From Meghimatium bilineatum (taxonomy: Eukaryota > Mollusca > Gastropoda > Stylommatophora > Philomycidae), in contig CM067316.1 of assembly GCA_034231615.1 (NCBI GenBank), forward strand, positions 26,712,093 through 26,776,092: a stretch of DNA of 64,000 nt. The letters run 5' to 3'. Under the pieces are notes generated by a model that saw nothing but the letters and a program-made list of their open reading frames with translations, was not told where the DNA came from and ran no database searches. Position numbers and translations under genes: made by a program. Below, piece by piece: positions 33,001 through 36,000 of the stretch (positions are counted from its first letter, which is position 1; every line of letters begins with the position of its first letter).

Positions 33001-36000
33001 CTTCAATGTTTCTGAATTTTTGGCTTACAGAGATAGAATGAATGGATCCCTTACGATGCTGTCTGCCGACAGTGCTGCTAGTGTTGCTTGTCTCCTAGCA
33101 GGAAATTCTCATTTTATCTACAGCCGGCACAGGCCTAAAAGTGTTGGCCAAAAAGACAGCAAGAACAGCTGTCTTTCTGTTTCCAAGGTGCACCTTGGGG
33201 AGGTTCTTTTAGGATCTTAGTTATCTGCTAACCCTGGGTCCGCCTATGTGGTACCCTTTGCACACTGTATAAGATCTTTAATTGATACGCATGGTCCATC
33301 ACAACAGTGGTCAGTTGTAAGATGAAATAGTGTGGTCTGTTGATGTCTTTCGAGGCTGTGTACTGCATTGAGTGTGTCTTCCACGTCCATTTGTTTCTTC
33401 TATTTTGACATGTGTGTGTTAAGAATTATGGTTTGTGTTCCTGTGTAGGACAGTGGGTGTTTGATATGTACATCCTGGTTTCCTGAGTTGGAACAAAATT
33501 AGGATTTATCCCTGTAACTGCTATGTGAATGCTCTGCCACTGTTACTTCAGCTAATTTGTTAGGAGTTGAGTGCGCACTTATGAGGGCTATATTGAGTCA
33601 TTAGGTATTGATTCTATCACATTTATGTGTATTTACAATGATGATTATGTAGCATGTACCCTACCAAGGCTCCAAACAAATCAAATTGGTGTCTGCCATG
33701 CAGGCATGTACAGTTTCAGCCCCTTAATTTAAACTTGCTATAATGCTTTTCTTTTTAACTGATGCAACCTCTTTTCTTGTCTTCCTCAGAGTCTGAAGCC
33801 TTAAGCATCTACCGCATCTCAGCCAAAACAGAGACAGTTAACGAAATTAAAGCAGCCTTTAATATGGGTACGTCAGCATACAGTTTATGTAAGAAATAGT
33901 TACTTCATCAGCTTATATTTCATGTCATTTGTGTTTGTATGTGCTATCTTGTCATTATTTGTTCCAATAGGATCATATGACAAAATAGCAACATACTACT
34001 TGCAGGAGACCTGTATGTGTATTGTTTTTTTTACAGGATAGGATTAGCTTTTGTAAAATATTTAATGAGGATTTTGGTGTGCATTATGCATAGAAAGGGG
34101 GCAGCGTAGCGCAGTGGTTAGTGAACTGGCTTTACATATGAGTGATCATGTGTTCATTGCCTAGTTGAGGCGGAAATGTTTTTCAGATCGCAACGGCTCT
34201 TGCATTGACCCAGCCTTAATTGGGTACCAGATTAATCCAGGAAATAAATATTGTGAGGGAGAGGAGATGGCTACTGCCCTCATATAGCAGAGCCACTGAA
34301 ATGCTAACATCTTACACCCCCAACATTGTTAATAAATGCTATGGGTTAACTTTACTTTTACTACTGCATAGATAAGGATAAATGTGATGGCTTTCACACC
34401 TCAAAATGTAGATGTGGATTTTCATTGCAAACCTTGAATAGATAAGGATAAATGTGATGGCTTTCACACCTCAAAATGTAGATGTGGATTTTCATTGCAA
34501 ACCTTGAATAGATAAGGATAAATGTGATGGCTTTCACAGCTCAAAATGTAGATGTGGATTTTCATTGCAAACCTTGAATAGATAAGGATAAATGTGATGG
34601 CTTTCACAGCTCAAAATGTAGATGTGGATTTTCATTGCAAACCTTGAATAGATAAGGATAAATGTGATGGCTTTCACAGCTCAAAATGTAGATGTGGATT
34701 TTCATTGCAAACCTTGAATAGATAAAGATAAATGTGATGGCTTTCACACCTCAAAATGTAGATGTGGATTTTCAATGCAAACCTTGAATAGCTTGTCAAA
34801 TATAAAACTGAACTTGTGTTGTTTTCTGCCCTCCCAAACTAAATATACAATGTGTAGACAAATCTAGATATATCAATCATTCAGAGAACAATTATAGATT
34901 GTGAATAGTAGTTACTTGATTTGAGATATTTGTCTCTCCATCCAATCATACACATCCATATCTCCACTTCCTTACTCTTATATGTCCATCTGTCCATTCA
35001 CCCACTCCTGTACATTCCTCTCTACTCCCTTACTCTTATATATATCCATCTGTCCATTCACCCGCTCCTGTTCATTCCTCTCCACTCCTTTACTCTTATA
35101 TATTCATTTGTCCATTCACCCACTCCTGTACATTCCTCTCCACTCCTTTACTCTTATATATATCCATCTGTCCATTCTCCCACTCATACACCCATCTCTG
35201 CATTCCCCCACTCTGTAACACCCATCTCTCCATTCATCTATTATTTCCGTTGATTGGGAAAATAGACAATGGAAAACAGTGAGACCCAGTAAGTCACCTC
35301 ATTGATCCATTCATCCAATTATAGAGCCTTACACACTTTTCAGGCTTTGTTTTCCTTCTGGACTTTTGTCTCATGACAGTTTCTTTTTTTGGTGCGGTGT
35401 GTCTCATCTTTTGTAACATTCTAGAAATATCACAGTATTGATTTCTCTATTGTCTATTAGTTAATCTGAGGGTAGAAGATTTGCACAAGTCTAGTAGTCT
35501 CTTCTTAGAATAATATATCTGACTTGAGATTTAGGTTGTGATAACGCAACTCTAATCTTCGTGTACCAAAATGGACAAGCTCAAAATAACTGGAACACAC
35601 GATTCTTCTGAACGAGATTTTTTTTTGGTCATTCCCGAAATATCGCAGTATGTTTGCATATTACATAAACTATTTTCTAAGATTTTTATCTCATCATAAT
35701 TTATCATGATACACTATGACAGACTGAATAATTACTTTCATAGACTGAATTATTTGTCATCAGTGGTTCTCAACCTTCCTAATACTGCGACCCTTTTAAT
35801 ACAGTTCCTCATGTTGTGGTGACCCCCCCAACCATACAATTATTTTCATTGCTACTTTATGGTGCATTTTTCGACGGTCTTAGACGATCCCTGTGAAAGT
35901 GTCATTTGACTCCCAAAGGGGCTGAGAACCGCTGTTTGTCATGGTACACTAGGACAGCCTGAATAATTACTTGCATAGACTGAAACTTGTTATGTCGCCT

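Follow-up and report, generated by a model that had tools for sequence, protein, structure and literature searches.

The sequence at positions 35753-35942 of the window (the whole 64-kb stretch of DNA analysed here) raises the question of whether a short transposon of the SPIN type, a type found in tetrapods, has entered a mollusc genome and, if so, how long ago. The initial annotation, made from the letters alone, had described a SPIN-like hAT MITE with a perfect 8-bp target-site duplication, had taken it as a hint of recent horizontal transfer and had guessed a gastropod host. The host was guessed correctly, the source being the land slug Meghimatium bilineatum (Gastropoda, Panpulmonata, Stylommatophora, Philomycidae). 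The genome searched (G000) comprised 1,612,235,226 bp in 32 contigs, with the window on contig 19; the published M. bilineatum assembly is given in the available text of PMC10770140 as 1.61 Gb in 25 chromosomes and 7 unanchored scaffolds.

The features of the locus, with the method by which each was placed, were as follows.

35700-35749, + strand, uninterrupted copy of a local repeat, i.e. the site without the element (TTTATCATGATACACT...); self-comparison of the window
35753-35760, + strand, left 8-bp target-site duplication TTTGTCAT; sequence reading and window-wide repeat scan
35761-35934, + strand, decayed element of 174 bp, very probably a non-autonomous Buster-type hAT element (SPIN/URR1-like MITE); family alignment
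35761-35775, + strand, 5' terminal inverted repeat (TIR) CAGTGGTTCTCAACC; end comparison
35919-35920, + strand, 14 consensus positions missing from the 3' subterminal region, the exact place being ambiguous (run of G); consensus alignment
35920-35934, + strand, 3' TIR GGCTGAGAACCGCTG; end comparison
35935-35942, + strand, right 8-bp target-site duplication TTTGTCAT; sequence reading and window-wide repeat scan
35935-35984, + strand, the other unit of the local repeat (90% identity), with the element inserted in its first 8 bases; self-comparison of the window

The same eight bases were read at 35753-35760 and 35935-35942, so the duplication is indeed perfect. The inverted ends (35761-35775 and 35920-35934) are complementary at 13 of 15 positions; the 'matching ends' described initially are therefore present but imperfect. 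The window was scanned for direct repeats using only 8-mers with at least three different letters. Within the 64 kb this is the only place at which a perfect 8-bp direct repeat is combined with inverted ends of at least 13/15, 60-400 bp apart, and no such place was found in 40 dinucleotide shuffles of the window taken together. A chance origin of the ends and the duplication was excluded by this comparison. At 174 bp the element is too short to encode a transposase. An 8-bp duplication, short TIRs and a lack of coding capacity characterize MITEs of the hAT superfamily, and all three were found, in agreement with the initial classification.

The insertion site could be reconstructed from the neighbouring sequence. 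The 50-nt units at 35700-35749 and 35935-35984 share 90% identity, the former carrying no insert, and removal in silico of the element together with one duplication left the second unit reading through uninterrupted. This bears out the clean insertion into a local repeat that had been noticed from the letters. Since the duplication, the inverted ends and the restored empty site agree, the insertion is real.

A search of the slug genome with the window element gave 892 first-look candidates. 40 of these were scored and all 40, the window copy included, matched the family; they are spread over 19 contigs. The family therefore has at least 40 copies, which is a lower bound, the 892 being unconfirmed candidates. 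Alignment, consensus building and divergence estimates were carried out with 28 of the 40 scored copies. The consensus was taken from the alignment, its last bases being set by eye, and the copies were then aligned to it; the majority of the aligned rows agrees with it at every position. It is 187 bp in length, with TIRs matching at 14/15 positions, so that the 174 bp given initially is the length of the window copy but not that of the family. Over 171 aligned positions the window copy is 89.5% identical to the consensus, with 14 + 2 positions missing and three bases extra.

The copy-to-consensus K2P distance of the 28 copies averaged 0.096 (range 0.038-0.148), or 0.076 without CpG sites, and the mean pairwise K2P between copies was 0.173, all of these values coming from a biased sample because similarity to the window copy was the basis on which copies were selected. 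In a burst from one master, the pairwise distance is expected to be double the consensus distance. The divergence pattern is roughly star-like, with a pairwise mean slightly below twice the consensus distance. A second letter was present in at least eight of the 28 aligned copies in three non-CpG and three CpG columns; as it reaches 8-11 copies in the three non-CpG columns, the star is not a pure one, and some substructure within the family is possible. Nearly a single master sequence would have given rise to the family.

The copy count and divergence in the slug genome, which the initial annotation had proposed as a check, thus stand at a minimum of 40 copies and a mean K2P of 0.096 for the 28 aligned, and they do not support its suggestion of a 'recent' transfer, which was rejected. 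The window copy lies at a K2P of 0.116 from the consensus, which is not the low divergence of a recent insertion, and only three of the 17 recognizable duplications in the family are still perfect.

The same data bear on the idea that the assembly is contaminated or chimeric with rodent or other vertebrate DNA. Nothing except the vertebrate likeness set out below would favour it, and it deserves almost no weight in view of the distribution of the 40 scored copies over 19 contigs, the different flanks and individual divergence (K2P 0.038-0.148) of the 28 aligned copies and the position of the window copy inside a local repeat.

The flanks of 17 of the 28 copies were alike at 6/8 or better, three of them at 8/8; in the other 11 no duplication reached 6/8, and several of these have damaged 3' ends. 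As a control, 201 of 2000 random flank pairings also reached 6/8 or better, a high value that is probably due to a target preference shared by the flanks. The preference across the 17 pairs reads nTCTAGAn (T2 in 29/34 letters, T4 in 31/34, A5 in 30/34 and A7 in 28/34). In the available text of PMC3499496 the duplication consensus of TcBuster is given as nnnTAnnn, and Buster and SPIN transposons are grouped together in a Buster family. This Buster-group pattern is present in the slug elements at the level of the family, through T4 and A5, and not in the window copy, in which TTTGTCAT keeps T2 and A7 without TA at positions 4-5. TcBuster itself (from Tribolium) differs in being an autonomous, active insect element, and the likeness of its ends is short only. 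Its membership of the Buster group and its nnnTAnnn duplications are the features in common, according to the part of PMC3499496 available.

Comparison with vertebrates was made with DNA printed in papers, which was sought using sequence words of the family. All of the papers found to contain such words were on mice, according to their titles, abstracts or methods. A sequence printed where the making of FDH knockout mice is described, in the part of PMC8376875 available, could be aligned to consensus positions 1-78 with 66 of 77 bases identical and one gap, the match starting exactly at the terminal CAG. The alignment score was 52, compared with 14 for the best of 1000 shuffles, and 51 of 62 aligned bases were identical when the 15-base search word was left out. 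For this alignment 87 bases were taken from a much longer printed passage. The FDH knockout locus is presumably Adh5, and the aligned mouse DNA is probably a copy of URR1, a rodent hAT element. We take URR1 to be nearly the same as the slug consensus in its 5' subterminal region (about 95 bp) and its 3' region (about 75 bp), and to differ from it by a longer middle.

Primers printed in the available texts of two further papers also matched. A Kcnq1ot1 primer (PMC6221546) agreed at 18/18 aligned bases of its 20 with consensus 109-126 (score 18, best shuffle 11), the first Ate1 primer (PMC2837401) at 18/19 with 169-187 (score 17, best shuffle 13) and the second at 18/20 with 113-132 (score 16, best shuffle 13). 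Words of 15 bases from the family retrieved PMC8376875 and PMC6221546, a family word also retrieved the first Ate1 primer, and the second Ate1 primer came along unsought; because papers were retrieved by family words, three of the four printed matches (all except the second Ate1 primer) are partly selected. Sequences that were used on mouse DNA thus contain parts of each half of the slug consensus. The matching mouse repeat is one that we take to be the URR1/SPIN family, and with this likeness across both halves of the element the description as SPIN-like stands.

Compared with SPIN of tetrapods and Rhodnius, the slug family has in common 8-bp duplications with TA at the centre (a Buster-group feature), the ends CAGTGGTTCTCAACC / CAGCGGTTCTCAACC and short non-autonomous copies in number, besides its matches to the DNA and primers of the mouse papers. 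It differs in that the aligned copies are not young (K2P about 0.10) and that the 187-bp form is shorter than the SPIN consensus. A likeness to the SPIN/URR1 lineage is supported by these sequence comparisons, and the slug family would belong to that lineage, the name being based in part on the mouse-DNA matches.

Alternatively, the family could be a hAT MITE peculiar to the slug, belonging to a different group and having only short generic hAT ends in common with SPIN. The ends of hAT elements are short and similar between families, as illustrated by the CAGTGTTTCCCAACC-like ends at 656-670 and 16515-16529 of this same window, and the SPIN comparison was made through printed mouse DNA. The likeness to mouse DNA nevertheless reaches 78 positions inward (66/77 bases), and the mouse-paper primers match consensus 109-132 and 169-187; both extend beyond a TIR and make such an origin improbable.

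Unselected non-coding DNA does not, on established knowledge, stay about 86% alike for more than 500 My, and the slug copies are only 0.173 K2P apart. These two points weigh against very old vertical inheritance from the mollusc-vertebrate ancestor, with no transfer at all, a reading to which the presence of a SPIN-like hAT in a freshwater snail too (described in the available text of PMC5440852) would lend itself and which we consider highly improbable. Judged from the likeness to printed mouse DNA, it is probable that the lineage passed between distantly related animals in the remote past.

The reading that we prefer, with a probability of about 0.88, is that of a fossil non-autonomous Buster-group hAT insertion of the SPIN/URR1 lineage, a member of a trans-mobilized and since decayed family in M. 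bilineatum. A Buster-type transposase made elsewhere and acting in trans would have bound a copy of roughly 187 bp at its terminal and subterminal ends, excised it and inserted it with an 8-bp stagger into a target of the family preference nTCTAGAn (here TTTGTCAT), with repair of the stagger giving the 8-bp duplication. After the family had spread, its copies would have decayed, the window copy by point changes and by losses of 14 and 2 bases, and the family would at present be inactive and under neutral decay. Horizontal transfer would probably have brought the lineage to both slugs and rodents.

An autonomous partner was sought in the slug genome through the domain PF05699, for which 150 of 2569 candidates were scored. 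30 of the 150 scored loci were inspected with about 1.5 kb of flank on each side. None of the 30 had paired family ends near the transposase within about 1.5 kb, apart from a separate MITE beside one locus, L055; a flank of this size would miss elements with ends further out. L055 (G000:C23:69555199-69555441) is a hAT dimer-domain locus about 1.1 kb from the MITE copy L017. It was rejected as the autonomous partner, the nearby pair of ends being that of a separate MITE at 2866-3051 of L055, and L055 and L017 are apparently separate insertions. Two other loci (L030 and L036) had one weak end each (three mismatches) without a partner end. In 12 of the 30 loci the domain was readable and appeared by eye to be Ac/ZBED-like rather than Buster-like; the remaining 18 had no readable domain end in the frame examined. 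For the Buster motif applied here, no Pfam family gave a match, and in the PDB it matched only two proteasome chains (E 1.2 and 1.8), which leaves the motif unconfirmed.

SPIN is also reported from a pond snail. Its occurrence in Rhodnius, from the work of Gilbert and co-workers, is described in the available text of PMC11614815. For Biomphalaria glabrata, a hAT element with identity to SPIN and about 1,000 copies is reported in the available part of PMC5440852, where the DNA elements are called not recent and an intact transposase was not found. The snail element resembles the slug family in its panpulmonate host, its hAT nature, its identity to SPIN and its many copies (PMC5440852, available text); it differs in that the host is a freshwater snail rather than a land slug, and the two were likened by description. 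For this freshwater relative a crossing between distant animals had already been suggested. Since a SPIN-like hAT was already known in Biomphalaria, the link to snails is not new, and the slug adds one more host. Among the papers listed in a literature search on SPIN in snails and slugs, there was no earlier report from a land slug beyond the work cited here and no paper on SPIN in the pond snail.

Exact patterns of the family were found in no stretch of viral_contigs or genome_contigs, an absence that means little because these collections hold viruses and prokaryotes, and a comparison of the family with phages and plasmids gave no match. Three viral contigs (L059-L061) were discarded as relatives; they have only 16-19 bp in common with a family end, which was taken as chance.

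Rodents are later hosts of parasites carried by land slugs. We suggest only tentatively, and regard as somewhat doubtful, that the SPIN lineage entered stylommatophoran slugs in a separate event from its entry into freshwater snails, as part of the broad wave that also reached tetrapods. If it were true, slugs, as prey of rodents and reptiles and as intermediate hosts of their parasites, could link tetrapods with other animals. The single copy in the window is in itself an ordinary fossil; the family extends a well known case of interphylum transposon transfer to a land-living slug whose genome is assembled to chromosome level, in which it could be dated against the SPIN copies of mouse, squamates and snails and the host link could be tested.

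Other repeats were observed in the same window. Tandem arrays flank the element on both sides, at 34500-34791, 34961-35236 and 36713-36925, with units of 70, 60/118 and 34 bp, respectively. A second Buster-like hAT MITE of 196 bp lies at 656-851, with ends CAGTGTTTCCCAACC / GTTGGAGAAACACTG and flanks TTTTAAAT / CTTTAGAT alike at 6/8; blastn with the SPIN-like consensus (E up to 1) found nothing there. The third hAT-like element (16515-17017, 503 bp) has ends CAGTGTTTCCCAACG / GGTTGGGAAACACTG and flanks CTGTACAC / CTGTAGAC, alike at 7/8. An isolated hAT-type end, GGTTGAGAACCCCTG, is located at 49248-49262, with TTCTAGTT next to it on the downstream side; when its partner was sought in the 4.2 kb upstream, six weak candidates emerged, the best at 8/15. 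The reverse transcriptase fragment at 21918-22610 (RVT_1, E 3.9e-10) is probably a retrotransposon remnant.
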